The notes under the pieces are model-generated. The model ran no database searches, was not told the origin of the DNA, and worked only from the letters and a program-made list of their open reading frames with translations. Below are positions 9,792 to 39,317 of a stretch of DNA of 41,648 nucleotides, one piece after another. Each line of letters begins with the position of its first letter. The stretch's first letter is position 1. This DNA is from Promethearchaeota archaeon (GTDB lineage: Archaea > Asgardarchaeota > Lokiarchaeia > Sigynarchaeales > SOKP01). Both the position numbers and the translations under genes were made by a program. The stretch is from the NCBI GenBank assembly GCA_019058515.1, contig JAHPYY010000143.1:1-41648 (forward strand), read 5' to 3'.

Positions 9792-9851
9792 TTATAATCT
9801 GACAAAATTTTAATTAGATTTGAAAACTTTATGTTAAGCTTAATAATCTTA

Positions 9852-9885
9852 TTACACTTAATAAGCTTAAGCTTACACTTAATAA
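9852..9885 (+). promoter_or_regulatory. Two 13-bp direct repeats, 21 bp apart, before the 9894 gene
   Basis: TTACACTTAATAA is exact at 9852-9864 and 9873-9885. The 21-bp period is two helical turns, so a dimer or tandem protein pair would bind the same face. The palindrome TTAAGCTTAA lies between the copies. The second copy ends 8 bases before the ATG. Confidence 0.5.
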
Positions 9886-9893
9886 CTGAAACA

Positions 9894-10292
9894 ATGGGTA
9901 AAAAGAAGAAAATTAGGGAAGAATTCGATGCCATCTTCAAATCAGGCGATCAACCGAGAATCAAACAAATGTTGAAGAAAAATCCTTGGCTTCTTTCAGA
10001 GCTTTCTTCAGAAATGAGCAAAGATATTGAGGTGCAACACCAAGTAATAGCAGCAATAGGAGTCATGGAAGATGAGTTGGGGCATTCTGTTAAACCATCC
10101 GAAGTAGTGACGAGTTTGAAAAGTGATTTTGGTATTAATAAAACAGTTCAGGAGATAGAAAAAATATTAATTGATATAGGAAACCTTGGATATGTTGAGA
10201 ATGCAAAACTTGGATGGAGTTTAACTGGAGAGGGGGAAATTATTTGTGACGAGTATCTGAATAAGTTTCTAAGAAACGCAGAATACAATTAA
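9894..10292 (+). CDS. Small protein with a probable winged-helix C-terminus
   Basis: 132 residues from ATG 9894; the longer frame from 9831 would translate the repeat region into a hydrophobic low-complexity leader and is not credible. The N-terminal third (GKKKKIREEFDAIF, then MLKKNPWLLSELS) is helical and charged. Residues ~60-125 have the rhythm of a winged helix: helices around IAAIGVMEDEL, VTSLKSDFGI and IEKILIDIGNLGYVE, then a beta wing LGWSLTGEGEII. I do not recognise a named family. It could be a DNA-binding regulator, and the phased repeats next to its start make autoregulation possible. That is an inference. Confidence 0.65.
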   Translation: MGKKKKIREEFDAIFKSGDQPRIKQMLKKNPWLLSELSSEMSKDIEVQHQVIAAIGVMEDELGHSVKPSEVVTSLKSDFGINKTVQEIEKILIDIGNLGYVENAKLGWSLTGEGEIICDEYLNKFLRNAEYN

Positions 10293-10628
10293 AATCGAAA
10301 ACACTTTAAGTGTTTTGAAAAAGATAGGTAATTATTTTATAATATTTGGTATAAAATCTAGTCGAAATTATTATATTCATAGGTTTAAAATCGAAGTAGG
10401 ATGGTATGTTTAAATTCAAATGTATTTAATATCCAATAGATAAATTTAAAACAATCAAACACTTGAGAGAATTGATAAATGAAAAGATTTTTTACTGGTT
10501 TTATACATAACATCTATGTCACTGTTGAATGTTACATCAAGTTCATAATTAGATTCTCCAGAATCAATTTACCTGTAAATTACAATAAGTTATTTGATAG
10601 CTAGTAATATCTTGAGGATGAGAATATT
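10293..10628. other. 336-base AT-rich gap before the giant repeat protein gene
   Basis: Apart from the inverted repeat at 10298-10316 it has no open frame and no RNA gene I can identify. The end of the gap supplies the Shine-Dalgarno-like GAGGATGAG at 10614-10622 for the GTG start at 10629. TATA-like AT runs are too many to pick one. Confidence 0.4.
10298..10316 (+). terminator. Perfect inverted repeat just after the 9894 gene
   Basis: AAAACACTT and AAGTGTTTT pair across a single T, six bases after the stop codon. On the plus strand the right arm ends in a T run, so it may end the transcript or protect its 3' end. Confidence 0.4.
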
Positions 10629-13600
10629 GTGAATGAATCAAATAATCATGAGAAAGAAATTGATATTGATGCAGAAGAATTACTATTTAAAGCAAATGAG
10701 TTTCAAGTGAATCACGATTTTGATTTAGCTATTGAAGAATACGACAAAGCTTTAAATTTTTACAAATCACAACATCTCACTGAAGAGATCGAGAGGGTTA
10801 ATCACCTAATCGACCAATGTTATGAGCAAAAATCTGAATATCTTACTACAATTCCTCTAACAACGACGGATGAGGATGTTGGGGGAAAAAGAGAAGAATT
10901 ACCTGAGAAAGTTAAGCAATTCGAAGCTTTAAAGCTTTCTGAAGAAAGTTTTCAACTCCAAATAGCCAAATTGGTGGATGAAGCTGAGCGTTTGGATAGG
11001 GAATTCGATGTCGACATGAAAAAATCCTTTAAAGAGGGAGAAATAGCCCAAAATCCTCCTTATTTAAAAATGATAGAAATTTACGAAGAAGTACGAGAAT
11101 TGCTGTTAAATAAAGGTTGGCTCGATAAAGTGGAAATTTATTCAAAGCAGATTGAACTTTGCAACGATAAACTGAATAAATATGAAAAATTGAGCGAACT
11201 TCACGAGAAGAAGGCTCAAGAGACAACAGTTTCTATTAAAATCTACGAACAGACTAAACCAGAAGAAACTATTAAATTAATTAAGGCATCAGATAGGGTT
11301 CATAAAGAGCTCGAAGAAAAAGAATTAGAGAATTATATTGCTAAACTAGTTGATAAAGCAGAAAATATCGCGAGAGAATATGAACTTTCTATGAAACAAG
11401 CAATCAAAGAAGGGAAGTTAGTTGAGCAATGTGCTTATCCAGAAGTAATAGAAATTTACCAGAAATGCCAAACTATCCTGAAAGACCAAGATTGGGTTAA
11501 GCAAGCTGCAGTTTATGCGAAGCAGGTGCAAATTTATAAAGAGAAAATGGAAAAAGATAAGAAATTAAGAAAAATCGAAGAGGAAAAAGCTAATAAACAA
11601 AGAGAATTCGAAGAATCTCTAAAAAAAGTAGAAACTGAGGGTATTCCTAAAGAAGAAGAGAAAGCCGAAAAAGTTCCTACAGAAGAGGACTTGTTAAAAG
11701 CGAAAATTGCAAATTTGGTTAATAAGGCCGAATCGATGGCTAAAAAATACGAATTTGCATTAAGACAAGGCAAATTCGAAGAAGATTGCCCTTATGAAGA
11801 AATAATTCAAATATACAAGGAATGCAAGAAGTTATTAATTGAAAAAAAGTGGATGGATCAAGCAAGAATTTACTCAAATCAAATCGAAATCTATGAAAAA
11901 AAGTTGGAGAATGACAAGAAATTACGGGATATTGAAAGACAGAAAGTTCAAAAGCAAAAAGAGTTTGAAGAGTCTCTTAAGCTAGGAAACATAAGGCAAA
12001 TTAAGACCTCTCTTAAACCAACCAAAGACAAATTATCAAAAGAAGAAGAAGATTTTAACCAACAAATTTTAGAATTGATTGATTCTGCCGAGAAACTAGT
12101 AAGAGATTTCGATAGTATTTTAAAAAGAAAAATAAAAGAGGGTAAAATTCACACGAATATCGAAAAAGTCGACGAAGCGATCCACATTTACGAAAATGTA
12201 ATAAAACTTATGAATAAGAAAGGTTGGGTAACACAATCTTTGGAGTTTCGAAACCAAATAAGTTTACTCGAAGAAAAGAAAGAAAATGTAAAAAGATTAG
12301 CCGATATTGAGGTAAGCAAAGCAAAACGAGAGCAAGAAATTAGCGAAATGCTAAAAGTTCATAAAACTGACGATACTAAAAAGATTCAAAAATTAGAGGA
12401 ATTAATGCTACGACGAAAAGAAACGGAAAAAACATTCGAAAGCGCTTTAAATTTAGTTGAGAAAGCCGAATCACTAGTCAACGAGTACGAGACAAATCTT
12501 AGAGAAGGAACCTACGACGATATAAGTCCTTACCCAAGAGCGATCGAAATATACTCACAAGCTATAAAAATCTTTGAGAAAGCTGGATGGGAAGAGGAAG
12601 CAAAAAAGTTGGAGAATACTAGAAAACTTTATGATGATAAGAAAATTAAAGATGAAAAATTACGAACTTTACGAGCTGGTGGAGTAATTCAGGATCTTGA
12701 TTCACATACATTTTCTGATTTAACTGAAGACATTTTAAGTAAAAAGATGATCGAGCTTAAAGAAGAAAGAGATAGGAAAGAGAAGTTGAACCTTGCGAAC
12801 GAGCTATTACAAAGATTAAAGGAGGTTGACGCAAAAGCCAAAAAATATGAAACTGCTATAGAGGAAGATATATTAAAAGTGGAGGCAAATCCGTATGAAG
12901 AAATAATTGAAGTTTACAACGAAGTAAAATCTGAATTCGAGAGGATCGGTTGGAGGGAAGAAACTATGCGAATGCAAGAATCGATCGAGTATTACAAAAG
13001 AAAATTGGAAGAAGATTTAGAAATCCGGGAAAACAGGAAAAGATGGCGAGAGGATAACAAATTAAAAGAACGAGGGTACACTTTAATGGAGAAAGCATCC
13101 GCAGCTCTTGAAAATAGAAATTATGACGAAGCTGAATCGATATATACTAATGCTAGTCGTATTTTTGAAAGTATAGCTAGCACTTTTGAGTTAGAAAAAA
13201 TAAATAACGCTTTAAAAACAATAGGTGACATTCGAAAAAGTCTTGCAGAAGAAGAAAGAAAACAAAAGGAATATGAACAGACCAAAGAGAAAGAATATAA
13301 ACAACGAAAACAGTACCTGTTGAGGGAAGCTGAACAGAAAAGGTTAGAAGCGGAGAAACTTACAAAACAGGAGTTAATAGAAAGATTATCTAAAGAAGAA
13401 AAAAATAAAAAAGCTCAAGAAATTATGGAAATGATCGAAGAAGCCGAACAGATAGTTAAAGATTACGAAAAGCAAATTAAGAATGGCGAAATCCCTGTAG
13501 AATGCCCATATAATAAAGTCATTGGAATTTACTCCTTGGCAAAAGAGAAATTTCAAGCAATGGAATGGCAAAATTATGTAAAAAGCATGGATGAAACGAT

Positions 13601-23338: not shown

Positions 23339-24138
23339 TTGAAAAAAGAATGTTTTAAATATATCGAATTCGTCAACGAAGGGAAATCAGCACTAATCAA
23401 ATTAAACAGACCAGAAAAGTTGAATGCTCTAACCTATCCTATGATTATGGAGATAAATACTCTTCTTGAATCCATCAAAAAAGAGAAAAAAATTAGAGCT
23501 ATTGTCATTGAAGGGAATGGTGATGGGTTCTGTTCTGGAGATGATTTAGATAGGATGAGACCTGAGGGGATTTAAGTTTACTCCATTGGAGGATGGGTTG
23601 CAAATGCCACATCAAAAAATGCTTCAAATGATAACTACAATACCAAAACCTGTAATCGCACATATTCATGGATTTTGTTTCGGTGTAGGATTTGATCTGG
23701 CTTTAGCTTGTGATTTCAGAATTGCTTCGGATACTATGACTATCGAAGATCGTAGAATTAAAAGAGCTATAGCTGTTCTTTGTGGAGCAACTTGGTTACT
23801 TCCCCAGGATAGTAGGACTCGGGAGAGCAATTGAAATTATACAAACCAGAAAACATCTAAGTGCATCTGAAGCGCTAAGTATAGGTTTGGTAAAAAGGGT
23901 TTACGAGAACGAGAATCTTCCAGAAAACTCTAACACATTCATAGAATACATTGCAAACCTCCCAACTAAGTGTTTCGGATACAACAAACAAATGCTACAC
24001 TACTCGATTCATAATGACTATAAAGCTTCCATCAAACACGAGTTTCGGCTTTATTGTAAAAACATGGCGTCCAGGGATTTCTGGGAAGGGGTAAAGTCCT
24101 TTCAAGAAAAACGAGATTCAAACTTTATAGGAAATTAA
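23339..24138 (+). pseudogene. Enoyl-CoA hydratase/isomerase, broken by two +1 frameshifts
   Basis: Three pieces in three frames join into one crotonase of about 265 residues: 23339-23572 (IKLNRPEKLNALT, FCSGDDLDRM), ~23572-23795 (KPVIAHIHGFCFGVGFDLAL, then ACDFRIASD) and ~23795-24138 (PRIVGLGRAIEI, HLSASEALSIGLVKRV). The joins fall in GGGG (at PEG) and CCCC (at LLP); removing one base from each run restores the family sequence exactly. The oxyanion-hole segments CSGDDL and HGFCFGVG are intact. The first segment begins at TTG 23339; an ATG at 23329 is out of frame. The family hydrates or isomerises enoyl-CoA thioesters. True pseudogene or homopolymer errors cannot be separated here. Confidence 0.85.
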
Positions 24139-27420: not shown

Positions 27421-27449
27421 CCTACGATAGCTTAAATACCTTGAGTTCC

Positions 27450-28118
27450 ATGACTGAAGAGAAAAATACTATAAAGGTAATAGACGACACCATCGATGCG
27501 GTACAAAAAATTATCGAAGCCCTAAATACCGCAAAAAGCGAACTGAACAAATTAGAACAAGAAAAAGAAAAATTAAGCAATGACACAAAATCACTCGAAA
27601 ATGATAAAAATAAGTTAGAAGCTGAAAAAAAGCAATTAGAAGAAGATAAAAAAGCCCTCGAAGAAGCTACTAAAAAGCTAGAACAAGAAAAAGCCGAAAG
27701 GGATCAAAGAATTGGTTCCTTAACTGAGGAACAACAGCGATTACTAAAAGAATACGAGAGTTTAAAAGTTGAACTCACAAAAATTGCAAAAGTTGCTGAG
27801 CAAGCAGAGGAATCAGAGTTTAATTTCGAGAGAATTAAAGCATTGTTATCAATATATGCAGTATTAATCGACGAAATATGGCAAGGTCAGCCTCATTATA
27901 GAATTTTGCTTTCCCTTCACGGTGAACGAGAACAAATGACAAGAGATGATATTAAGATGACAACAGGAATTTCAGGAGTTATGGTTCTTCGAGCGATACA
28001 CGAACTTGCCAATATCGACCTTGTGGATTTCGACGAAGATACTGATGTTGTCAAATTGAAGCGAAGGTTGTTCGAAAGAGAAGCCTTAGAAGATAAAAAA
28101 GGGAAGAAAAGCGAATGA
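27450..28118 (+). CDS. Coiled-coil protein with a C-terminal winged-helix domain
   Basis: 222 residues from ATG 27450 (an upstream TTG at 27441 would add three). Residues ~10-115 are a continuous heptad coiled coil (LNKLEQEKEKLSNDTKSLEN and similar). From ~130 a helical segment leads into a winged helix: YRILLSLHGEREQMTRDDI, TGISGVMVLRAIHELANIDL, VDFDEDTDVVKLKRR. The domain pattern resembles coiled-coil DNA-binding or ESCRT-like wHTH proteins, but I cannot assign a family. Cytoplasmic, with no signal. It ends 4 bases before the convergent lipocalin-like gene. Confidence 0.7.
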   Translation: MTEEKNTIKVIDDTIDAVQKIIEALNTAKSELNKLEQEKEKLSNDTKSLENDKNKLEAEKKQLEEDKKALEEATKKLEQEKAERDQRIGSLTEEQQRLLKEYESLKVELTKIAKVAEQAEESEFNFERIKALLSIYAVLIDEIWQGQPHYRILLSLHGEREQMTRDDIKMTTGISGVMVLRAIHELANIDLVDFDEDTDVVKLKRRLFEREALEDKKGKKSE

Positions 28119-28122
28119 GTTC

Positions 28123-29181
28123 TTACTTTTTTACTTGTCTTACAATCACCATTTCGTGAAGAGTGTTTCCTTGTTCTTTGAATTTATTCCCGTTATATGC
28201 GATATCCAAATCGAACTTCGAATTTAACCTGAAATACCCTGGTTTAAGTCCCAAAACATTTTTGGCCAAAAAGCGTACAATCGGATTTAATTCCAATAAC
28301 AGGTTATCTGCGTCGATAATATCTTGAACTTCAAGAATTATTTTTTTATTATCTGAAATGACGAATTCTAATATTTTAGGGTATTCGTTATTTGCGTCTC
28401 CGTTAAAGATGTGATTTTTCTCAATTAATTCATATTCCCCTGTGCTTAAAAACACAGATTCCCCTTTTGCCAACATGAGTACCTTAATTGCGTAGTCATC
28501 CATTTTTTTATTACATTTAATATAGGCATAGAGCATCGTAAAATTTTCCGAGAAAATCCTGCCCCAATGCCAATAATCAACGATTTTCATTAAATTAACC
28601 GTGACCCAATTGTGATCGTGGTACCCCTCCCCATTTACAGTAATCGTCTCGCCGTTTACTTTAATTGTACCTTCTACTTTTGCTCGAGGAATCGCCACGC
28701 ACCAACCAAAATGCTCCATTTTGCCAAACTCAATTTTTCCCCTTCCAGGCATCCACGCTTGAACTTTAGGTGTGTACTTTAGGTGTATTCCGTATTTTCC
28801 CTCGTCTATGAAGATCTCGTAATTAGGTAACTTAGGATTTGCATTATCGACTTTTATGTAATTGCTTCCGACTTGCACATTAGCATTTTCCCGAGAAACT
28901 TTTAAGTCTGTACGAGAGTAATCGTAAACATTCTGTATTTTTTCTCCATCTGGCGTGTATATTGTTATTTCTACTCCCGTTTTTCCCGTTCGCTCGTGTT
29001 TAGCGCGAAAGAACGCAACCACAACATATCCATTGTCAAGTCGAGCGTCGAAATACCACCACTCTGTGTTTCCTCTCCTATTCATGTCAATGTGTAAAGC
29101 ATCGAATTTAGGTTCAAATTCGGTTATTACCTCATCTTTTTTGCCTGGACCTGTCCAAGCTTCTTTAATTTTTGAAGTCAT
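28123..29181 (-). CDS. CrtC/AttH-like lipocalin-fold protein (hydroxyneurosporene synthase family)
   Basis: 352 residues. The N-terminal lipocalin-like domain has the family signature TEWWYFDARLDNGYVVVAFF near residues 38-57, and the second half GEGYHDHNWVTVNLMKIVDYWHWGR carries the conserved HDHNW. CrtC adds water to acyclic carotenoids; AttH/Svf1 relatives bind lipids. No signal peptide, so cytoplasmic. It is the last gene of a leftward run (29 bases after the SCP2-like gene) and shares the locus with a CrtI-like desaturase on the other strand. A role in binding or hydrating an isoprenoid is plausible from context, not proven. Confidence 0.8.
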   Translation of the reverse strand: MTSKIKEAWTGPGKKDEVITEFEPKFDALHIDMNRRGNTEWWYFDARLDNGYVVVAFFRAKHERTGKTGVEITIYTPDGEKIQNVYDYSRTDLKVSRENANVQVGSNYIKVDNANPKLPNYEIFIDEGKYGIHLKYTPKVQAWMPGRGKIEFGKMEHFGWCVAIPRAKVEGTIKVNGETITVNGEGYHDHNWVTVNLMKIVDYWHWGRIFSENFTMLYAYIKCNKKMDDYAIKVLMLAKGESVFLSTGEYELIEKNHIFNGDANNEYPKILEFVISDNKKIILEVQDIIDADNLLLELNPIVRFLAKNVLGLKPGYFRLNSKFDLDIAYNGNKFKEQGNTLHEMVIVRQVKK

Positions 29182-29210
29182 AGCACCTTACATCTCGCTT
29201 TTTTTTATTT

Positions 29211-29645
29211 TTACTCTTTTAACATTTCAAATATTTTTAGTAATTTCAACAACTTAAAAAGACCCTTCATCTTTACCTTCCCAGTTAGCCATCGAACGCC
29301 AATTCCTATTACGGAAATTTTGTCCATGGCCAACCCTAAAAAGATTTGAGAGTCCATCGAAATAAGCCCATCCCATTTAAGCTTTTTTTTGCTCAAATTA
29401 GTTTTAGGTTTGTTAGGGATGCTCTTCACAGTTATCGTACCATTTTCTATAATCACTAACCCCGCGTGGTTCAAATTAGAAGCGTTAATTACATAGATTA
29501 ACTTTTCCTTTTTGTAATTTTCTTTAAATTTCGAATTATCGTTGAGGTTTGACATGATTTTTTCAATTAACGCCGCAAAACCACGAGGTTTAGAGCTAAT
29601 TAAGTTCTCACTAATTCCTTTAGTGGTCAATGATCCTTCACTCAT
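29211..29645 (-). CDS. SCP2-like sterol/lipid-carrier domain protein
   Basis: 144 residues, a single SCP2-type domain. The pattern is a beta sheet around LIYVINASNLNHAGLVIIEN, GTITVKSIPNKPKT, then a LKWDGLISMDSQIFLGLAMDK segment with the family's D...F.L.G spacing, and the closing GKVKMKGLFKLLKLLKIFEML. SCP2 domains hold hydrophobic ligands such as sterols or fatty acyl-CoA in a tunnel. It is cytoplasmic and lies 2 bases after the FAD oxidase gene and 29 bases before the CrtC-like gene. That makes a lipid-carrier job in the same pathway likely by inference. Confidence 0.72.
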   Translation of the reverse strand: MSEGSLTTKGISENLISSKPRGFAALIEKIMSNLNDNSKFKENYKKEKLIYVINASNLNHAGLVIIENGTITVKSIPNKPKTNLSKKKLKWDGLISMDSQIFLGLAMDKISVIGIGVRWLTGKVKMKGLFKLLKLLKIFEMLKE

Positions 29646-29647
29646 AA

Positions 29648-31219
29648 TTATGAATCTCCTCCTTTGGGGGAAATATAGTACCCCGAATCTGATATATCGT
29701 TGGGATCAAACGCTTGTTTGATTTTTCTCAACCAAACATGGTAATTCATCATATCAGGTCCGAATAATTCGTGCATACGATCACCTTCGACGAAAAAGGG
29801 AGCACCAAGATGTTTTACCAAGTCAAACTGATTGTTTTCCTGCATAAATTCCCCCATCCCTTCAACGCTTGTATCGTCGGTTTGATCGTACATTGTGAGA
29901 GATTCCATGTGAAAATAATGCCCAGACTCGTAGGAGTTTACCCAAACTCCCTCCCCGAAGTCATTACCAATTACCCCCTTTTTTATGTACTTCTTTTTTA
30001 AAGGTATGCTCTTTTCTGTGCTGGTAAGGCACAATCCAACCGTATCGCAACACCCTTTAACGCTTTGGAAACTTCCAGTTGCAATAAATCCGTGTAAGCC
30101 TAAATTAGCCCTTAACACTTCTGCGTAAAACAAAGGATCAATTTGAAATTTAGAACCTACAATATCTTCGAGATTTAATTCCTCTAAAACTAATTTCATC
30201 GCTTTTTTTTTATACTCAAACTCACCTTTTGTGCGCGCCGCTATTACAACAAGAACTGGAACCTTTAAGCTGGCAATTGAGAATTTTTCTAAAAGCTCTT
30301 CAATGGAATAGGAGAGAACCGCGCTTATACCGTAACCTGATAAATGACTGCATAAGAAGGACATCTCTTCTCTTTCTATCCTCAAAATAGCTCTTTCGAC
30401 GCCTTTATAAGAGCCACAATCGATGATATACGCTCGAATGAAATCAGGTACTTCAAAACGATATTTTGGAGAATTTCCACTTAATTCAAATTTAGTACTA
30501 CACGGATAAGGAAATAACTTAAGGGCTACTTTTGTAAATATTCCTAGCCCAGATTTCGCTCCCGCCCATCCTCTCATGATTCCTCGCAAACTAAATCCGG
30601 GACCGTCGCCAGAGAACCAATCTGAATTACCTTTAATACCCAATGAACCAAGCTGAAGTAGTTTTCCATCAGGTAACACCCATTCAACGGCTAAAACATT
30701 TCTGGAACTATGACCAGTTGAGGGAGATGTGAATCCAGGACCATTCATTGATGTTGCACTAGCTAGAGGACTCGTCATTGGTCCAGCACCGGGCATGTGG
30801 CAATTTAAATCATATTTCATTAATTCCGACTGCAATTGGGCTCCAGTTATATAAGGTTCCACTACGCAATACAAATTATTTTCGTCGATTTTCACGATTT
30901 TATTCATTCTGCGAAGATCGACAATTATCGAATTTTCGGTGGATGGTTGATTCCAAGGACCAAGGCCGGTAGATTGAGCTTTAAACTTTATTTGGTATTT
31001 ATTACACAATTTCACTATGTTTACCACTTCTTCTGTTGAAGAGGGAAGTATAACTGCTTTTGGTATTGGAGAAAACGGGATAGGCTCTTTATCTTCCATA
31101 TAGTTGGTAATTTCAACACACCAATTATATGCGTACGCATTAGTAATTATTTCTCCATCGTTTACATTATGTTCCCCCACCACTGCCTGAAACTCTTTTA
31201 ACACACTTTTTTCTAGCAC
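29648..31219 (-). CDS. FAD-linked oxidase (GlcD/AGPS-like)
   Basis: 523 residues. PCMH-type FAD-binding domain near the N-terminus: KAVILPSSTEEVVNIVKLC, then STGLGPWNQPS, IIVDLRRMNKIVKID and a GPMTSPLASATSMNGPGF phosphate-binding stretch, with DGKLLQLGS and GLGIFTKVALKLFP later. The C-terminal half is the substrate cap. Relatives oxidise hydroxy acids, aromatic alcohols or ether-lipid precursors. It sits between the CCG-type Fe-S gene (6-base gap) and the SCP2-like gene (2-base gap), so the electron acceptor is probably that Fe-S protein. It shares only the overall fold with the other FAD oxidase in the run. Confidence 0.88.
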   Translation of the reverse strand: MLEKSVLKEFQAVVGEHNVNDGEIITNAYAYNWCVEITNYMEDKEPIPFSPIPKAVILPSSTEEVVNIVKLCNKYQIKFKAQSTGLGPWNQPSTENSIIVDLRRMNKIVKIDENNLYCVVEPYITGAQLQSELMKYDLNCHMPGAGPMTSPLASATSMNGPGFTSPSTGHSSRNVLAVEWVLPDGKLLQLGSLGIKGNSDWFSGDGPGFSLRGIMRGWAGAKSGLGIFTKVALKLFPYPCSTKFELSGNSPKYRFEVPDFIRAYIIDCGSYKGVERAILRIEREEMSFLCSHLSGYGISAVLSYSIEELLEKFSIASLKVPVLVVIAARTKGEFEYKKKAMKLVLEELNLEDIVGSKFQIDPLFYAEVLRANLGLHGFIATGSFQSVKGCCDTVGLCLTSTEKSIPLKKKYIKKGVIGNDFGEGVWVNSYESGHYFHMESLTMYDQTDDTSVEGMGEFMQENNQFDLVKHLGAPFFVEGDRMHELFGPDMMNYHVWLRKIKQAFDPNDISDSGYYISPKGGDS

Positions 31220-31225
31220 CTTTAA

Positions 31226-32536
31226 TCATCCTCTCGTTGTTTCTGTCTCAGATGATAAATTTAGCGCCATTAGTATCAATTCACTAATGTCGTAATATTT
31301 TAATTTTGAACCTTTTGCTTGTATTGCCTCTTGTAGATTCGTAGAACAAAATGGACAAGCCGACACTATTGCGTCAGCTCCTGAGTCTTCCGCTTCTATT
31401 ATGCGAGATTTTGCCGTATTAAGAGCCATTTCTGGGAAAGCGGATTTTACTCCAGCTCCCGCACCGCAACAATACGCGTATTCTTTAATTCTTTCCATTT
31501 CCACAAACTTTAAACCGGGTATTTTACTCAAGATATTCCTAGGAGCGTCATAAACTCCTTTTTTCCCCGTTCTTTTTGGTTTCGGAGGGAGATTTATGGA
31601 AATTAAAGGCATCAACTTTACTTCGTCGCCCTCCCAATCCTCGTATCGTTCAGCGTTCCTCCCCAAATGGCAGGGATCGTGGTAAGTTACGGTGAGAGGA
31701 ACTTCGTTGGTAAGTTTTAATCTACCCTCGTCAATTAACCTATCGAAATACTCTACCGTGTGAAGGACTTCAAAATTATAGTCTCTGTGTAAAGAGTAAT
31801 CGACTTTAAATGTGTCGTAACACCCTGCGCAACTAAATACAACAGTATTAACTTTTTTAGACTCAATAACATCAATGTTTTTGTTTAGAATCTCGTTGAA
31901 AGTATGTACATCTCCTACTCGTAAAACTGGACTTCCACAACAATATTCATCTCCGTCTAATATTGAAAAATCTACATCTGCAGCATTCATTATTCTCGCA
32001 GCGGCAATAGCCATTTCCTTTCTTCGGTAAGAAGATGTACAACCCACGAAATATAATGTGCTTGCGTTCGGAGTTATTTTAACATCTTTCGATATCCAAT
32101 TTGCTCTATTTTCGTGAGGTTCGCTGTATGGATTGTTCAAATTACGCACAGATTCAATATATTTCTGTTGTTTTGGCATTGGCCCTATTCCACATTCCAC
32201 CAATTTCTCTCTTAATTTCACTATGATTTCGAGAGGCTCAAGCGTGTTCAGAAACTTGCATGCAATTGCACAGTTTCCGCATTCGGTACATTTATACACA
32301 ATATCTCGCAGTTCCTCAGTTGGTTTAATTCTTCCCATTTCCAACGCTAAGGCCAGAATTATTTTTCCTCCCCCGCTGTATGGATGAAAGTTATACATAT
32401 CTATGGAGGGACAAGCTCCTGCGTATTTTTTACTTTTGATTTGAACCTGAGGAATCCATTTACAAATAGAACACCTTAGACAACGCTTAATCATTTGCTG
32501 ATATTCATCTTCGGATAAAGTCATCTTGGTTATCAA
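31226..32536 (-). CDS. CCG-domain iron-sulfur protein (GlcF/HdrD-like)
   Basis: 436 residues. N-terminal [4Fe-4S] ferredoxin part with CLRCSIC and CTECGNCAIAC, then two CCG-type domains: CCGSPVLRVGD and SCAGC in the first, CCGAGAGVKS and CPFC in the second. In HdrD the CCG motifs bind special 4Fe-4S clusters that carry out disulfide or quinone chemistry; in GlcF they accept electrons from flavin oxidases. There is no membrane helix, so it is soluble or peripheral. It is between two FAD oxidase genes, which points to an oxidase complex rather than true heterodisulfide reductase. Confidence 0.9.
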   Translation of the reverse strand: MITKMTLSEDEYQQMIKRCLRCSICKWIPQVQIKSKKYAGACPSIDMYNFHPYSGGGKIILALALEMGRIKPTEELRDIVYKCTECGNCAIACKFLNTLEPLEIIVKLREKLVECGIGPMPKQQKYIESVRNLNNPYSEPHENRANWISKDVKITPNASTLYFVGCTSSYRRKEMAIAAARIMNAADVDFSILDGDEYCCGSPVLRVGDVHTFNEILNKNIDVIESKKVNTVVFSCAGCYDTFKVDYSLHRDYNFEVLHTVEYFDRLIDEGRLKLTNEVPLTVTYHDPCHLGRNAERYEDWEGDEVKLMPLISINLPPKPKRTGKKGVYDAPRNILSKIPGLKFVEMERIKEYAYCCGAGAGVKSAFPEMALNTAKSRIIEAEDSGADAIVSACPFCSTNLQEAIQAKGSKLKYYDISELILMALNLSSETETTRG

Positions 32537-32573
32537 TACAGATGTATTTTTTGCATTATACTCTTAAAATACT

Positions 32574-34049
32574 TTAATTTTTATCAAAACACATTACTCC
32601 CGGATTTAAAACATAGTTCGGGTCAAAAATATCCTTCACTTTTCTCATTGCGAGTACAATTTCTTCACTATGTCTATTAAAAACTTCATTTGCGCAGATT
32701 TTATAGGGACGAGAAAAAAAAGCTCCCGCGTCCAATAATTTGGGATATAAATTACTTAGTTTTATTTCAATTTCTTTTAATGATGCCTCATTATCTGAGT
32801 CATAGTAGATATCGAATTCACAGTGGTACGAGGTTCCTTGATTACAAGCTTGAATATACACCCCTACATCTCGAGATTGTTCGTTTTCAACCAATGAAAT
32901 AAATTCTGGCACATTTTCGAGAGACGATAGAAAGAACACATCTTGAAAAGCGTTTTTATATCTTAACCTCCATGGATTTTTAGTCTCGTAATTAATTGAG
33001 TTTAAAATCTCTACATCTTCTACAGCGTTAGAAGATTTTAATTTAGTGAAAGAAAACTCCTCGATGATGTCTTCAATGTCTTTCTCAAGGTATTTTATTC
33101 TTTCTTCAGCCAATTTACCCTTACCAGATATGACATAAATTAAATTCCATTTTAACAGAGAGTTGGATAAAACTTGAATTTCTTGGGGATTATTTTTTAA
33201 TAAACATGCTAAATTTAAATCGTTTAGAAGGAAGATCTCATCGCACAATCGATACTTTATTAATTTTTGTTGCAACTTCAGTAAATCCCGTAGATCTTCA
33301 GATTGGTAATGAAATACCTTCTGTATTGAAGGTAAATATTCTAATTTCAATGATGCCCATGTTACAATTCCTATACTCCCCTGAGCTCCCTGAATTATTC
33401 TGAATGGACTAAATTGGGTTGGTCCCATTGGATTTTTCTGAGCTTGATGAGTTTTTTTCTGTTCTTTTAACGAACCCGGTCCTGCAGCTGCGCCAGTACG
33501 AAATAAATCTCCCGTACCAAACACTATTTCTGTGCATAATAAAGGATCTGAACTATCCCAGTGATATCTGGGAATTGTAATTGGTTCTCGTTCTAATGCC
33601 GAAGTAACAACGGACTTATCAACAGTGGGATTTAAAGGCATAAGTAATCTAACACCTAATTTTCTTAATTTTGGAACTAGGTCAGAGAAGGTAACTCCTG
33701 GTTCTATCATAACTACACGATTTTTGGTGTCAATAGAGATGATATTTTTCATTTTCGACATGTTCATGATGATTGTGCGCTCTCTCTGAGGAATAGTATC
33801 TCCATGAAGTTTTATTTTGGAGCTAGAACTTACAGGAACGATATAGAACCTGTGTTGGTTCGCTGATTCAACGATTTTTGCTATTTGTTTTGTATTTATA
33901 GGCCAAACAATTAAAAGAGGAGTAATCCCATGAACAAAACTTAAATCGCTCATATATTCCTTCAGAATATTCTCATCGTCAGATATATTGCTTTTACCAC
34001 AGATCTCTATTAAGTTTTCTCGAATAATAGATACATTCTCGTCAAGCAT
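32574..34049 (-). CDS. FAD-linked oxidase (GlcD-like), first gene of the leftward operon
   Basis: 491 residues. FAD-binding pattern LLIVWPINTKQIAKIVESAN, VSSSSKIKLHGDT, TIIMNMSKMKNIISID, VMIEPGVTFSDLVPKL, then GTGDLFRTGAAAGPGS and QGAQGSIGIVTWASLKLEY. The C-terminus NPGVM with a preceding MRKVKDIFDPNY is the family's typical end. Followed 37 bases later by the CCG Fe-S gene. It shares an ~80-base divergent promoter region with the FixC-like gene. Two different FAD oxidases in one run suggests a heterodimer or two successive steps. Confidence 0.87.
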   Translation of the reverse strand: MLDENVSIIRENLIEICGKSNISDDENILKEYMSDLSFVHGITPLLIVWPINTKQIAKIVESANQHRFYIVPVSSSSKIKLHGDTIPQRERTIIMNMSKMKNIISIDTKNRVVMIEPGVTFSDLVPKLRKLGVRLLMPLNPTVDKSVVTSALEREPITIPRYHWDSSDPLLCTEIVFGTGDLFRTGAAAGPGSLKEQKKTHQAQKNPMGPTQFSPFRIIQGAQGSIGIVTWASLKLEYLPSIQKVFHYQSEDLRDLLKLQQKLIKYRLCDEIFLLNDLNLACLLKNNPQEIQVLSNSLLKWNLIYVISGKGKLAEERIKYLEKDIEDIIEEFSFTKLKSSNAVEDVEILNSINYETKNPWRLRYKNAFQDVFFLSSLENVPEFISLVENEQSRDVGVYIQACNQGTSYHCEFDIYYDSDNEASLKEIEIKLSNLYPKLLDAGAFFSRPYKICANEVFNRHSEEIVLAMRKVKDIFDPNYVLNPGVMCFDKN

Positions 34050-34106
34050 TTTTATATTTCAATAGGTTCGTTAGTATTAAAAATGATAGTAAATAAAACA
34101 AACTAT

Positions 34107-34124
34107 CTAATAAAAATATATTAG
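34107..34124 (+). promoter_or_regulatory. Short inverted repeat just before the rightward operon start
   Basis: CTAATA (34107-34112) and TATTAG (34119-34124) are inverted copies with a 6-base spacer, 6 bases before the GTG start. The gap between the two divergent operons is only 80 bases, so a regulator bound here could affect both. AT-rich context weakens the call. Confidence 0.3.
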
Positions 34125-34129
34125 AAAGA

Positions 34130-35545
34130 GTGGCGAAAATTGTGAAAGAATACGATCTTATTATCGTGGGAGCCGGACCAGGGGGTTCGATGGCTGCGAA
34201 AACCGCCGCGGAAAATGGGTTGAAAACTATATTTTTCGAGAGGGGTCGAAATCCAGGTGAAAAGAATTCCTCGGGATGTGGGTTAGGACCACGTATGTGG
34301 AAAGATTTTCCTAATTTGATGAAAGAATTAACACCCGAAAAATGCCCTTCATTAAGGGCGGGAGCTGCCGCTCGTAATTACTTTATTAATAAAGAAGGTA
34401 TAGTTGCTGGTTATATTATGAGTCGTCCAACTGAATCAGTATCTTATGAGCCTGCGAAAAGTTGGATTACAATGAATTGTTATCGCAGCGAGTTTGACCC
34501 ATGGATTGCTGAATTTGCATTAAACGCGGGTGCTGAATTAAAAACCTCAACTCTCATAGTATCCCTATTAAAGGAGAACGGTAAAATTTGTGGAGTAGTT
34601 GATGAACATGGAGAAAAATATAAAGCATCTATGGTAATTGGAGCGGATGGGGCTATCTCAATGGTTGCGAAACAAAGCGGATTAAGAACAAAATGGTCGC
34701 AGGACCAGATTACGGCTGTTCCCCAATATGATTTCTACGCACCTCCAGAAAAAATTGATGATATTATGGGAGATGAAGCGCTTGGGATCTGGTGGTCTGC
34801 CACATTTCCATCTTCCTATCAAGTTTTTTTCAATGATGGTTTTCATCAAGGTTTAGGAAACTGGTTGAATAAGTGGGATAAAAATCCATTGTTTTATCTA
34901 AACAAGATTATTAATATGAAATATTATCAAAGATTGTTGAAGATATTAGAGGCTAAACCGAGGGAACTTCAATCTCATCTTCTTCCATGGTTGCAATATC
35001 CGTATAATACGCATACAGATGGTGTTATCTTAATTGGAGATGCTGGAGGATTTCCTTGTCCTCTCGAAGCTGAAGGAATTTATCCAGCAATGGTCACAGG
35101 AAAGGTAGCAGCAGAAGTTGCAGCTGAAACAATTAGTTCCGGAGATGTTTCTAAACAACGGCTCTCTAAATTCGATGAGATGTGGCAAAAAACAAGCGTA
35201 GGTGAAGAATTCGAAGCAGGAGAAGAATTATATAACATATGGAAGGCTTTACCCTTTAGTCCTAAAGAAACGATGACATGGTTCGTACCAATGATTATGG
35301 AAGCACTGGGAGGAATTTTTGATTGGTCACAGCCTCATGCTAAACGAGTTCGACAAATTGCAGCTCATATTAAATCATATATGCCACAAGCTTTACCCTT
35401 TATATTGAAATATGTTTTTCCGCTTGTTGCTAAAATTTTTGAGGAGGATCTTGATGATATGATGGATCCTCAGAAATTGATGAAAGTGCTTCCAAAAGTT
35501 ATAAGTATGCTTCCGAAAAAGAAAAAGCGAAGGAGGGGATCGTAA
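34130..35545 (+). CDS. FixC/geranylgeranyl-reductase-family flavoprotein
   Basis: 471 residues from GTG 34130 (a second GTG at 34142 is possible). FAD-binding GAGPGG at 14-19, ERG at the end of the Rossmann strand, a CG pair (SSGCGLG) that often sits beside the flavin, and GVILIGDAGGF near 300 followed by PLEAEGIYPAMVTGKVAAEV, typical of COG0644. The next gene is a FixX ferredoxin, as in ETF-quinone oxidoreductase fix operons; archaeal geranylgeranyl reductases are from the same superfamily and also take electrons from ferredoxin. FixA/B (ETF) are absent. Role between quinone reduction and isoprenoid reduction stays open. The C-terminus has a basic KKKKRRRG tail. Confidence 0.85.
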   Translation: MAKIVKEYDLIIVGAGPGGSMAAKTAAENGLKTIFFERGRNPGEKNSSGCGLGPRMWKDFPNLMKELTPEKCPSLRAGAAARNYFINKEGIVAGYIMSRPTESVSYEPAKSWITMNCYRSEFDPWIAEFALNAGAELKTSTLIVSLLKENGKICGVVDEHGEKYKASMVIGADGAISMVAKQSGLRTKWSQDQITAVPQYDFYAPPEKIDDIMGDEALGIWWSATFPSSYQVFFNDGFHQGLGNWLNKWDKNPLFYLNKIINMKYYQRLLKILEAKPRELQSHLLPWLQYPYNTHTDGVILIGDAGGFPCPLEAEGIYPAMVTGKVAAEVAAETISSGDVSKQRLSKFDEMWQKTSVGEEFEAGEELYNIWKALPFSPKETMTWFVPMIMEALGGIFDWSQPHAKRVRQIAAHIKSYMPQALPFILKYVFPLVAKIFEEDLDDMMDPQKLMKVLPKVISMLPKKKKRRRGS

Positions 35546-35547
35546 AA

Positions 35548-35811
35548 ATGGATATAAATAGTTTAACTAATCATATTCCGGGAATGGGAGATTTTATTAA
35601 GATAGATCGAAATAAATGCAATGGATGCGGTATGTGTGTTAGAATTTGCATTGTAAATTTATGGGGAATAAAGGATAATATTGCGTTTATTAGAGATGAC
35701 TACAAGGAAAAATGTTTAGAATGCGGATGCTGTGGTCAAGTGTGCGAACCTAATGCTATTGATTTTAATTATCCTGCTGGGGGAACTGGTGTTATCTTCA
35801 AGAGGGGATAA
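35548..35811 (+). CDS. FixX-like 2[4Fe-4S] ferredoxin
   Basis: 87 residues. First cluster C24, C27, C30, C34; second C56, C59, C62, C66, with an extra C61. The end, DFNYPAGGTGVIFKRG, matches the FixX-specific tail of ETF-quinone oxidoreductase ferredoxins, which separates it from general ferredoxins. Starts 2 bases after the FixC-like gene and ends 1 base before the CrtI-like gene, so it is translated with them and probably passes electrons to the FixC-like flavoprotein. Confidence 0.9.
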   Translation: MDINSLTNHIPGMGDFIKIDRNKCNGCGMCVRICIVNLWGIKDNIAFIRDDYKEKCLECGCCGQVCEPNAIDFNYPAGGTGVIFKRG

Positions 35812-35812
35812 C

Positions 35813-37153
35813 ATGTTAAGCTACGATTATGACATAGTTATTATTGGATCAGGTTTAGGAGGACTAACAGCAGCGAGTCTTCTATCCCGCAAGGGATATA
35901 GAACTCTTGTAGTGGAGAGTAGAAGTCGGATAGGTGGGAGATTTTCCACTTTTGAGTATGAAGGGTTCAAATTACCCACTGGTGCGATTCTTATCCCGGA
36001 TGGGTGGGTAATAAAATTGCTTGAGGATATGGGGATTAGAACTGACAATTTAAGACCAATAACTCGAGTTTATTATAGAATTGATGGTGAAAGATATGAA
36101 ATCCCCCCTGAAATGGGAGTACCAAAAGCGCTTGACATAATAGATAAGCTTGAAAGAGAGGATGCAGAGAAGCATAAGCGTCCAGCGAAACCTGTCGAAT
36201 TAAGTAAAATTATGCGTGGTTATTACAAAAAAATGCGAGGAATAAACCGAGATGACATTATAACTGTGCGAGATTGGCTTCTCCAATATACTGAGGTCGA
36301 AAAAGTGCACGAAGCTTTTGATACTCTCTGTACAGGATTGATGATGGCTCATTCATGGGAGCTACCTGTATCAAAATTTTTCCTTTTCCAAGAAATGACG
36401 AAATTTTACATATCAGCTAGCGGAAACCTCAGCATAGCGGAAAAGCTTGCTAAATTTGTTGAAAAAACCGGCGCTGTATGGACCAATTCCCCTGTGAAGA
36501 AAATAAGAGTCAAAGAGGGAAAAGCTTCAAATGTAATTGTTAAAAAGGTGGGAAAACAAATTGATATAAAATGTAAGGTGGTAATTAGTAATGCAGGGGC
36601 TAAATCGACGGTATTTCTGGCAGGAAAAGAAAATTTTGAGAGTGAATACCTTGAAAAGATGCGGATAAAACTTCGACCAAGTCCTTGTTTACTGGTTCTA
36701 GTCGCAAGCGATAAACCTTTATGCTTGGAAGGAATACGCGATGGGCTGGAAATAATAATGGGATCTCGAAGAATTAAGAATGTTATTCCTATTAGTAATA
36801 TCTGTCCCGAACTTGTTCCCGCGGGGCAACATCTTTTTTACACTTCAGCTAAGTCCGAATCAACCTTACACCCTATGGATATAAAATACGAAATGCAACA
36901 AGTTAAACGCGATATTAGGGAATTTTTTCCAGATTTCGAAAAATACGGTCGGATTTTAAAAATGAGGGCGTGCGGTATTATCAACGAATGGCCTGAAGGT
37001 CGAACTTGGCTTGGTTATGGTATGCCATTAGAAACGCCGATACCAAATCTATTTAATGTAGGAGATTCATGCATCGAACCAGGTCTTATAGGAACTCCAG
37101 GTTCTGTAGAAAGTGGATACCGAGTGGTCGACATTGTTGAAAAGGTATTGTAA
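35813..37153 (+). CDS. CrtI-like FAD-dependent phytoene desaturase/carotene isomerase family
   Basis: 447 residues from ATG 35813; a longer frame from 35732 would overlap FixX by 80 bases and add a non-family leader. Dinucleotide-binding IIGSGLGGLTAASLLSRKGY, VVESRSRIGGRF with the second Gly-rich turn, and the C-terminal FAD motif NLFNVGDSCIEPGLIGTPGSVESGYRV. CrtI-type enzymes desaturate or isomerise long isoprenoids; relatives also act on other polyenes or amines. Placed directly after FixCX and opposite a CrtC-like gene, a isoprenoid-type substrate fits. No phytoene synthase (CrtB) is in the window. Confidence 0.85.
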   Translation: MLSYDYDIVIIGSGLGGLTAASLLSRKGYRTLVVESRSRIGGRFSTFEYEGFKLPTGAILIPDGWVIKLLEDMGIRTDNLRPITRVYYRIDGERYEIPPEMGVPKALDIIDKLEREDAEKHKRPAKPVELSKIMRGYYKKMRGINRDDIITVRDWLLQYTEVEKVHEAFDTLCTGLMMAHSWELPVSKFFLFQEMTKFYISASGNLSIAEKLAKFVEKTGAVWTNSPVKKIRVKEGKASNVIVKKVGKQIDIKCKVVISNAGAKSTVFLAGKENFESEYLEKMRIKLRPSPCLLVLVASDKPLCLEGIRDGLEIIMGSRRIKNVIPISNICPELVPAGQHLFYTSAKSESTLHPMDIKYEMQQVKRDIREFFPDFEKYGRILKMRACGIINEWPEGRTWLGYGMPLETPIPNLFNVGDSCIEPGLIGTPGSVESGYRVVDIVEKVL

Positions 37154-37184
37154 TCCAATTTGAAGATTTATAAAATTTGATTTT

Positions 37185-38309
37185 ATGGACATTAGTGATT
37201 TAAAGATAGGAAGAGAGGGAACATTTATACCTCCATTTAAAAGTAATATCGACACCGTTAAAAGCTATGAAAATGAGGGATATGATTCCATATTTTTTGC
37301 AGATCACATCTTAAATTGGATACCGGAATCTATCTGGACTCCAGATATTACTGATCTTGCTACAATTTATCCTAGTCCCCATCTAGTATATGATGTGTTT
37401 GCTATGATGACTGCTACTGCCTTAAACACAAAAAAAATTCACATTGGGACAGGAGTAACCAAAACTTTTAGAAGGAATCTCGCTGTACTTGCGCAAACTT
37501 TCCTGACTTTAGATGAGTTATCTAAAGGGAGGACGATATTAGGGATAGGAGCAGGTGGAAAAGAAAATACCGTTCCCTACGAAATTAGATGGGAGAATCC
37601 TGTAAGTAGATTAGAAGAAGCCGTTATAATCATTAGAAAATTATGGCAAAACGATGAACAAGTAAATTACAACGGAAAATTTTGGAAGTTAGAACATGCT
37701 TTACTCAGATTAAAACCTTTTAAAAAAGGAAAATTTCCCCCGTCATAGATTGCCACTCGTGGTAACCGAATGCTAGAAATAACTAGCAGACTAGGCGATG
37801 GTTGGTTACCCATATTTTTGAAACCAGATGTTTATAAAGAAAAAGTAGGGATCCTTCGAAATTACACACTGAAAGCTGGTAGAAATGCGGATGAAATTAC
37901 TCCAGCAGTTATTTTGGGAGTTATCATGGATGAGGATTGTGAGGAAGTCGAGAAAATGCTCAAAACCCCCGTTACAAAAAACACGTTAATTACCTTATAT
38001 CATGATGATTTCACCCCATATGGATTATCGCATCCTCTTGGAAAAAATGTTGACGGATCTTTAGAGTTTATCCCTACACATTACGATAGAGGGTCATTGT
38101 TGCAAATACTTGAAAAGATCCCTGTTGAAATGTGTCACGATTTTTACTTAAACGGTAGTCCTGACGAGATTATCGGTCAAATTGAAAATTACGGCAAAAT
38201 TGGTGCGAAACATATTATTCTATTTAATGTTTCAATATTATGTGGCCTAAAATATATTCCACGTTCAAATAAGTGTATGAAAAAAATAATTTCATACTTC
38301 AAAAACTAA
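37185..38309 (+). pseudogene. LLM-class (likely F420-dependent) oxidoreductase with an in-frame TAG
   Basis: The frame is unbroken from ATG 37185 to TAA 38307-38309 except TAG at 37746-37748. Before it: FADHILNW, IHIGTGVTKTFRRNLAVLAQ, GIGAGGKENTVPY, SRLEEAVIIIRKLW. After it IATRGNRMLEITSRLGDGWLP continues without a shift. Family proteins read P-P-x-Y-I-A here, so the amber sits where a tyrosine is usual (TAT or TAC to TAG). Full length 374 residues, the length of F420-dependent luciferase-like oxidoreductases such as phthiodiolone ketoreductase. Fourth in the rightward run, 31 bases after the CrtI-like gene. It may be a recent nonsense mutation, an error, or read through. Confidence 0.8.
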
Positions 38310-38358
38310 TGATCTAAGCGTTATTCTTTTTTCCAAAAATTTCCTAAAAAAAAATATC

Positions 38359-38369
38359 TTATAAAAATA
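38359..38369 (+). promoter_or_regulatory. TATA box of the amidohydrolase gene
   Basis: TTATAAAAATA ends 18 and begins 29 bases before ATG 38388, so this gene can be made independently of the genes upstream. Confidence 0.4.
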
Positions 38370-38387
38370 TGGAATTATTAGATCCTT

Positions 38388-39317
38388 ATGTCAACAAACT
38401 CTCAAAAAATAGATGTTCACCATCACATTGTACCTAAAGAATACCTTTCAGCTTTAAGCTCAATAGGCATCAAAAATGCTGTTGGCGAACCCTTCCCTCA
38501 GTGGGACATAGAAAATACTTTTACTTTTATGGATAGGCAAGGGATAGCTATAGCAATTAATTCAATTTCTGCACCAGGTATTTATTTTGGAGAGAGAGAG
38601 TTTACTCAAAAGTTAGCGCGCAAATGCAACGAAATTTCTGCTTGCATGGTGGATGAATACCCAAATCGCTTTGGCGCGTTTGCTATTTTACCCCTACCAG
38701 ATATAGAGGCATCCATAGTTGAATTGGAGTTTGCTTTAGACACCTTAAAATTAGACGGGGTTGTATTACTTACTAATTTTGGAGGGAAATACCTCGGAGA
38801 TGCTTATTATGATGATCTTTTTTACGAGCTAAATCGCAGAAAAGCTGTGGTGTTTGTACATCCAAGTACACCTCCTTTAGGTACATTTCCTGTGATAATT
38901 AAACCCGCGGTTTTGGAATTTGTATTTGATACCACAAGGGCAATTGTTAATCTAATACATAGAGGAGCAACAAAACGCTTTCCGGACATAAGGTTTATAT
39001 TCTCCCACGGAGGAGGAACTGCTCCCTTTATAGCTTGGAGAATTACTTTTGGTAATAAAAAGATAATAAATCAGTTAAAACGCTTTTATTACGATACAGC
39101 AGTATCAGCAACCCCTTATACTTTAAGTTCTCTGCTGAGTTTGGTGGAACCAACGCAAGTATTATATGGGAGCGATTATCCATTCTTGCCCGAAAGGGTT
39201 GTAAAACAAATGAACGAAGGTCTTCAAAATTACGATTGTGAAAGGGAAACACTCGCGAAAATTGTCCAGTACAACGCTATTTCTTTGTTTCCAAGATTTA
39301 AGGAAATATTGATTTAA
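38388..39317 (+). CDS. Amidohydrolase-2 family (ACMSD-like) metal hydrolase/decarboxylase
   Basis: 309 residues. HxH metal ligands H11/H13 in DVHHHIVP, FVHPSTPP, a metal His in FSHGGGTAPF, and the catalytic Asp in YGSDYPFLP. This is the COG2159 pattern shared by ACMSD (aminocarboxymuconate-semialdehyde decarboxylase), 4-oxalomesaconate hydratase and gamma-resorcylate decarboxylase. The TIM barrel length is normal. It is preceded by its own TATA box, so it may be functionally linked but not strictly co-transcribed with the LLM-class gene. Decarboxylation or hydrolysis of a carboxylated intermediate is the likely chemistry. Confidence 0.88.
   Translation: MSTNSQKIDVHHHIVPKEYLSALSSIGIKNAVGEPFPQWDIENTFTFMDRQGIAIAINSISAPGIYFGEREFTQKLARKCNEISACMVDEYPNRFGAFAILPLPDIEASIVELEFALDTLKLDGVVLLTNFGGKYLGDAYYDDLFYELNRRKAVVFVHPSTPPLGTFPVIIKPAVLEFVFDTTRAIVNLIHRGATKRFPDIRFIFSHGGGTAPFIAWRITFGNKKIINQLKRFYYDTAVSATPYTLSSLLSLVEPTQVLYGSDYPFLPERVVKQMNEGLQNYDCERETLAKIVQYNAISLFPRFKEILI

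Follow-up and report, generated by a model that had tools for sequence, protein, structure and literature searches.

Little is known of the lipid chemistry of Asgard archaea, to which the eukaryotic host lineage is more closely related than to any other known group. Isoprenoid double bonds are the target of the CrtC and tocopherol-cyclase enzymes described so far. The geranylgeranyl reductase (GGR) of Methanosarcina acetivorans is reported to be served by a ferredoxin encoded in the same locus and to act as a reductase, and a phytoene-desaturase homolog of this archaeon makes hydroxyarchaeol (PMC10821996). In Myxococcota, a GGR homolog is reported to reduce C-24 of sterols (PMC12004948). Here we analysed a stretch of 41,648 nucleotides from a Promethearchaeota archaeon (contig JAHPYY010000143.1, hereafter the window), which carries two divergent runs of redox and lipid-handling genes. 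Six to seven of these neighbouring genes make up an apparently undescribed module that occurs in Lokiarchaea and several other Asgard archaea. We tentatively propose, as a possibility somewhat short of an even chance, that this conserved module modifies, by redox chemistry that needs no oxygen, a hydrophobic molecule of the isoprenoid type, not generally a carotenoid, and would combine one GlcDEF-like complex with a FixC-FixX pair, a lipocalin and a carrier. The parts belong to known superfamilies and their combination appears to be new; in keeping with the initial annotation, which knew of no named pathway with this set, we found it undescribed in the open-licence literature, subscription papers and preprints being outside the search.

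The divergent redox cluster reported by the initial annotation is confirmed: all its genes lie where it had placed them, and seven of the ten products are redox proteins. The leftward run (minus strand) is ordered FAD2, CCG, FAD1, SCP2-fold protein and CrtC-type lipocalin. FAD2 (32574..34049, 491 residues) and FAD1 (29648..31219, 523 residues) are flavoproteins of the vanillyl-alcohol oxidase/p-cresol methylhydroxylase (VAO/PCMH) type, both matching PF01565, and the Fe-S protein CCG (31226..32536, 436 residues) is an HdrD/GlcF-like electron-transfer subunit with two PF02754 matches, Fer4 and conserved cysteines. They are followed by the SCP2-fold protein (29211..29645, 144 residues), a putative hydrophobic carrier assigned from its predicted model, and by the lipocalin (28123..29181, 352 residues; PF07143 at 35.4 bits, cut-off 22.5). 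The rightward run (plus strand) is ordered FixC, FixX, CrtI, LLM and amidohydrolase, in which FixC (34130..35545, 471 residues) is a GGR-type flavoprotein and FixX (35548..35811, 87 residues) a 2[4Fe-4S] ferredoxin with Fer4 matches and all eight cysteines kept. FixC perhaps starts at a GTG at 34142, which fits the starts of its relatives better. An 80-base gap (34050..34129) separates the FAD2 boundary at 34049 from the FixC start at 34130. The spacings within the runs are 29, 2, 6 and 37 bases in the left run and 2, 1 and 31 bases in the right run, both in coordinate order.

Using the window CCG protein, we collected 30 loci with the record titles Candidatus Lokiarchaeota or Lokiarchaeia, whose CCG proteins are 69-79% identical to the query; each gene was counted only in loci with enough contig on the relevant side. 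FAD2 is present in 26/26 and FAD1 in 28/28 of the loci with room, the SCP2-fold gene in 27/28, a lipocalin in 18/23 and FixC in 15/21. The mean column identity in the Lokiarchaeota alignments is 81% for FAD1 and 82% for FixC. Insertions between neighbours occur in few loci, such as L012, in which FixC and FAD2 are separated by an IS605-type transposase gene, and the set still stays together. The synteny that the initial annotation had left to be sought in relatives is therefore found, the gene set being kept, beyond what chance would give, in Lokiarchaeota (30 loci) as well as in other Asgard genomes, and the leftward run plus FixC-FixX constitutes a conserved module with lipid-handling members. 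Two loci show rearranged copies. L017 carries two tandem copies of the CCG-FAD1 pair (6873-12826). In L024, which lies on the chromosome-level metagenome-assembled genome (MAG) G003:C1, the module is split within FAD1 into parts about 480 kb apart, with the front half of FAD1, CCG, FAD2 and FixC at 2300443-2307077 and the rear half of FAD1, SCP2 and a tocopherol-cyclase-type gene at 2783043-2785067, by either rearrangement or misassembly.

A survey of 227 genomes of the phylum of G003, itself a Lokiarchaeota record, extended the comparison. These are mostly MAGs, in each of which a limited number of candidates was scored, so that every count is a minimum. Genomes with a match numbered 98 for the SCP2 profile (E<=1e-3), 71 for FAD1 and 60 for FixC (both E<=1e-80), and 55 for CrtC (E<=1e-10). 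Pair distances were then counted on strong matches only, a pair being two genes of one genome within 12 kb on one contig. For this purpose we dropped SCP2 matches weaker than E 3.9e-52 except those of G161 and G162, the eight FAD1 matches that, with the G003 fragment left aside, were weaker than E 8e-141 (71 to 70 genomes), FixC paralogs between and below the kept fragments (60 to 49 genomes) and CrtC matches weaker than 5.7e-84 (55 to 46 genomes). Among genomes holding both genes, FAD1 pairs with SCP2 in 42/43 and with CrtC in 39/41, and SCP2 pairs with CrtC in 26/27; the corresponding counts are 34/48 for FAD1 with FixC and 24/33 for FixC with CrtC.

The protein identity of the set in other Asgard genomes is roughly 40-60%. 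In another Asgard lineage (L041-L043) the genes lie on a single strand in the order PadR-FixC-FixX-FAD2-CCG-FAD1-CrtC, lacking SCP2, with PadR identified in L041 and L042. L044 has the same order from FixC on, where its contig ends, and the FixC of L046 is of the same type as the copies of L041-L044. L052 has FixC-FixX-FAD2-CCG-FAD1, with no lipocalin or SCP2 match. The occurrence of the same gene set in both divergent and single-strand arrangements argues for a shared function. At SCP2 paralogs, no second copy of the module was found in the 10 regions examined (L031-L040).

The SCP2-like carrier claimed by the initial annotation stands by fold and not by family: the predicted model (pLDDT, a per-residue confidence score, 84.4) matches UbiJ-SCP2 and sterol carrier proteins, and no SCP2 Pfam match was listed at E<=0.1. 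The window lipocalin passes the Pfam cut-off of PF07143 and scores 23.5 bits against the cut-off of 400 bits of the CrtC equivalog. In nine genomes (G133, G140, G145, G131, G123, G118, G003, G111 and G117) the CrtC slot is occupied by a tocopherol-cyclase-type lipocalin that shares 69-100% identity with the L008 protein matching PF14249 (89 bits, cut-off 26.6) and lies 63-172 bases after the SCP2 gene by match coordinates. None of the nine has a CrtC match, and none of the 30 loci has both types; the two lipocalins exclude each other in one slot. A comparison of their profiles (E 1.9e-4, probability 47%, shallow alignments), with ends at the loops GEGYHDHNW and GKGYMEKDWG, is only suggestive of relatedness. 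Distant homologs (42-44%) of the tocopherol-cyclase-type lipocalin lie beside hydantoinase A/B and enoyl-CoA hydratase genes in L061-L064, with no module genes beside them in these loci, which belong to other genomes of the phylum; several of these genomes also have a weak SCP2-profile match.

FixC was correctly placed in the FixC/GGR family by the initial annotation: it is a relative of geranylgeranyl reductase, nearest to the GGR and FixC families, and matches 7koe (FixC of EtfABCX) and 3oz2 (an archaeal GGR) equally. Its flavin-facing Cys motif is kept, as CGLG in 16/16 close sequences and as the Cys in 12/14 sequences of a wider alignment. In a tree of 26 GGR-like proteins, ten module FixC copies form one clade (100/100), separate from the PGGYIWYFP-bearing GGRs of G001, G002, G003 and G005, with window FixC paired with that of L017 (100/99). 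A role of FixC as the sole membrane-lipid GGR was rejected, as all ten genomes searched hold higher-scoring GGRs. In G001, G003, G004, G005, G006 and G007 a UbiA gene is found no more than 3 kb from the best GGR, which by this gene context is likely the membrane-lipid enzyme, distinct from module FixC. A FixABCX system was also rejected, since an electron-transfer flavoprotein (ETF) is near the module in none of the 15 module genomes having one; a further two of the 17 module genomes gave no ETF match.

In the profile search with FAD1, 19/19 PDB sequences at E<=1e-15 are of the VAO/PCMH type, covering residues 50-244 only. FAD2 has 39 PDB matches, the first 31 of which are VAO/PCMH enzymes, led by 4-cresol dehydrogenase (E 1.3e-26) and followed by D-lactate dehydrogenase, VAO and AGPS sequences. 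The PCMH residues Tyr95, Tyr473, Arg474 and Arg512, which we take to bind phenolate, are mostly not kept: in the place of Tyr95, FAD1 has Pro and FAD2 has His, and Tyr473, Arg474 and Arg512 correspond to Asn, Arg and Val in FAD2. The substrate is therefore not readable from these positions, and the predicted model of FAD1 (pLDDT 62) is too weak for an active-site reading. L051 encodes a fusion protein of 1071 residues beside a CCG gene and a CrtC gene, in which the FAD2 profile covers residues 1-486 (E 4.7e-104) and the FAD1 profile residues 507-783 (E 2.4e-71) and 912-1065. Its CCG (35% identity) has lost several cysteines of the first CCG motif. Among the 84 fusion relatives listed, identity to the L051 protein is 56% or more except in P0323 and P0324, and most cover both halves. 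Two of them bear bacterial names (P0266, Chloroflexi; P0303, Anaerolineales; 72-75% identical to the L051 protein), by transfer between domains or from misbinned contigs.

The gene set, its order, the FAD2-FAD1 fusion and the lipocalin exchange are observed and the carrier fold is predicted; the complex, chemistry, direction and substrate that we infer would be as follows. FAD2, CCG and FAD1 would form one complex built like the glycolate dehydrogenase GlcDEF, in which a C-H or C-OH of the substrate would be oxidised by the flavin subunits and the electrons would leave through the CCG clusters. FixC, with electrons from its own ferredoxin FixX, would saturate an isoprenoid double bond, the lipocalin would hydrate (CrtC type) or cyclise (tocopherol-cyclase type) an isoprenoid double bond, and the SCP2-fold protein would bind and carry the substrate. 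In favour of this proposal are the conserved gene set with its closely paired genes, the single-strand operon of the other lineage, the fusion in L051, the mutually exclusive lipocalins, the SCP2 fold, the kinship of FixC to the GGR and FixC families with its retained Cys, and the ferredoxin-served GGR of M. acetivorans. An isoprenoid is pointed to mainly by the activities of the lipocalin families and by the GGR-type FixC. A quinone as acceptor, suggested by the initial annotation, is doubtful: MqnA/D of the futalosine pathway was found in none of the 17 module genomes, the classical Men pathway being outside the search.

Several observations weigh against this proposal. No substrate gene is linked to the module. 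The SCP2 fold does not give the ligand, because alkylsulfatase C-terminal domains share it and score as high. Window FixC scores 126.9 bits against TIGR02032 (geranylgeranyl reductase), under the cut-off of 158.8, as do the module copies of the 10 genomes searched (125.6-137.5 bits). The GGR motif PxxYxWxFP is not kept in FixC, in which P, Y and F remain and Trp is replaced by Val, and its last Pro is N, G or R in 7/7 module sequences shown. FixC is absent from six of the 21 loci with room (L007, L008, L009, L020, L027 and L028), so FixC-FixX is placed elsewhere in some Lokiarchaeota, and all 14 misses among the 48 genomes with FAD1 and FixC have the two genes on different contigs. As L052 shows, there are lineages that lack SCP2 and the lipocalin, so that neither is indispensable.

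The same parts could also run in the opposite direction, as a catabolic module for detrital hydrophobic compounds (prenyl lipids, terpenoids or hydrocarbons) taken up by Asgard archaea, a reading that we consider unlikely though of appreciable weight. FAD1, FAD2 and CCG would then oxidise the substrate presented by the lipocalin and the SCP2-fold protein, and the electrons would leave via FixC/FixX or ferredoxin. The VAO/PCMH character of both flavoproteins speaks for it, as do an AMP-binding (acyl-CoA-synthetase-like) gene near FixX in L016 and L030 (the L016 member was tested), an aldo-keto reductase in L008, and a decarboxylase-type amidohydrolase near the module in 5/30 loci. However, the 30 loci show no conserved neighbour of the module for uptake or beta-oxidation, and GGR-type enzymes served by ferredoxin are known as reductases (PMC10821996).

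Two FAD_binding_4 subunits with one CCG Fe-S subunit are the make-up of GlcDEF, which raises the alternative of an ordinary GlcDEF- or D-lactate-type hydroxy-acid dehydrogenase with FixCX as electron outlet, the lipocalin and SCP2 serving an unrelated lipid task. The top Foldseek match of the FAD1 model, mitochondrial D-lactate dehydrogenase, agrees with this alternative, but it is tied with VAO and confirms the superfamily only. The GlcD equivalog scores (72.8 and 61.1 bits, cut-off 567.9) and the GlcF score (32.9, cut-off 333) fall far short, as holds for the glycolate and lactate equivalogs alike, sequence profiles rank VAO/PCMH enzymes first, and the lipocalin and SCP2 closely accompany FAD1. 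Altogether, we regard an ordinary hydroxy-acid dehydrogenase as improbable.

In a further reading, to which we give very little probability, anaerobic Asgard archaea would use the module to make or remodel a ring compound with a prenyl chain, a tocochromanol-like or prenylquinol-like lipid. FixC-FixX would saturate the chain, FAD2-CCG-FAD1 would oxidise the ring side without O2, and the lipocalin would hydrate or cyclise the chain. If true, vitamin-E-like chemistry would exist outside photosynthetic organisms, to which the production of tocochromanols is said to be confined (PMC5745509).

A carotenoid hydration and desaturation pathway by CrtC and CrtI is hardly credible despite the PF07143 and crtI_fam resemblances: phytoene/squalene synthase (PF00494) is lacking in 67/70 FAD1 genomes and present in three (G157, G162 and G205) versus 30/227 overall, and close CrtI was found in at least 7/227 genomes when the best seven candidates per genome were scored. 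We therefore rejected a carotenoid as the general substrate; it may still be the substrate in the lineage of G050 and G051, which have CrtC and PF00494 without a strong FAD1 match (G050 has the fusion).

The remaining rightward genes had been counted by the initial annotation as part of the set, and instead form a separate, rarer accessory unit. They encode a CrtI-like flavoprotein (35813..37153, plus strand; PF01593, with crtI_fam below its cut-off), an LLM-class oxidoreductase (37185..38309, plus strand) and an amidohydrolase of the ACMSD/decarboxylase type (38388..39317, plus strand; PF04909), the last with 2f6k and ACMSD as best PDB matches and with TATAAAAATA, a putative promoter element, at 38360-38369 upstream of its gene. 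Close CrtI lies beside the module in only two genomes of the survey (G002 and G005) and, among the 30 loci, also in L015. The trio occurs apart from the module in L077, as does CrtI-LLM in L075 and L076, and we rejected it as core. The amidohydrolase gene in L001, L018, L024, L029 and L030 makes a loose link to the module possible. The initial interpretation is thus partly supported: it holds for the leftward run plus FixC-FixX as a module, fails for the trio as core and is doubtful for quinone.

The LLM gene is present where the initial annotation had it but is not intact, owing to an in-frame TAG at 37746-37748, a site that is Trp in both aligned relatives (L017 and L030). In codon comparisons the window copy has the highest nonsynonymous divergence (dN) with L017 and L030, not with L077. 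A class-C beta-lactamase-like serine hydrolase gene (minus strand) is likewise split by an in-frame TAG at 3326-3328 into open reading frames at 3326-3856 and 2681-3301. TAG terminates 4/31 called window genes, and the two in-frame codons may reflect sequencing error, decay or readthrough. A third damaged gene, enoyl-CoA-hydratase-like (about 23339-24138, plus strand), apparently has its reading frame interrupted near 23571 by a stop or frameshift. The gene that converges on that of the lipocalin encodes a 225-residue coiled-coil protein (27441-28118, plus strand), which has weak coiled-coil Pfam matches only, is present in 20/30 loci and may be a regulator or merely a fixed neighbour. No tRNA genes were found in the window, nor any Rfam match at the gathering score.

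This redox module, conserved and combining an SCP2-fold carrier with exchangeable lipocalins, provides a short, defined list of genes for expression and assay, and implies a lipid that could be searched for. Compared to plant and cyanobacterial tocopherol cyclase (PF14249) with GGR, the nine genomes with the PF14249 lipocalin have it in a module to which a GGR-type enzyme belongs elsewhere; however, the hosts are anaerobic-type archaea, no aromatic-precursor genes were seen beside the putative cyclase, and the window itself carries the CrtC type. With the M. acetivorans GGR (PMC10821996) the module shares a GGR-family flavoprotein and a ferredoxin gene in one locus, whereas window FixC belongs to a clade of its own, scores below the GGR cut-off and has Val in place of Trp in the catalytic motif, and the module genomes tested hold other, higher-scoring GGRs. 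EtfABCX/FixABCX systems have a similar FixC- and FixX-like pair, from which the module differs in lacking adjacent ETF alpha and beta genes. The p-cresol methylhydroxylase/vanillyl-alcohol oxidase family comprises the best solved relatives of the FAD1 and FAD2 profiles, although the partner in the module is a CCG Fe-S protein and the FAD1 match is limited to the FAD domain. GlcDEF similarly combines two FAD_binding_4 flavoproteins and one CCG/Fer4 Fe-S subunit encoded together, but the module proteins score far under the equivalog cut-offs, and the flavoproteins are nearer to VAO/PCMH. Moreover, the module genes are linked to GGR-type, SCP2-fold and lipocalin genes, with FAD2 and FAD1 fused in one lineage; if our proposal is true, a single system can be made up of a GlcDEF-like complex together with a GGR-ferredoxin pair.

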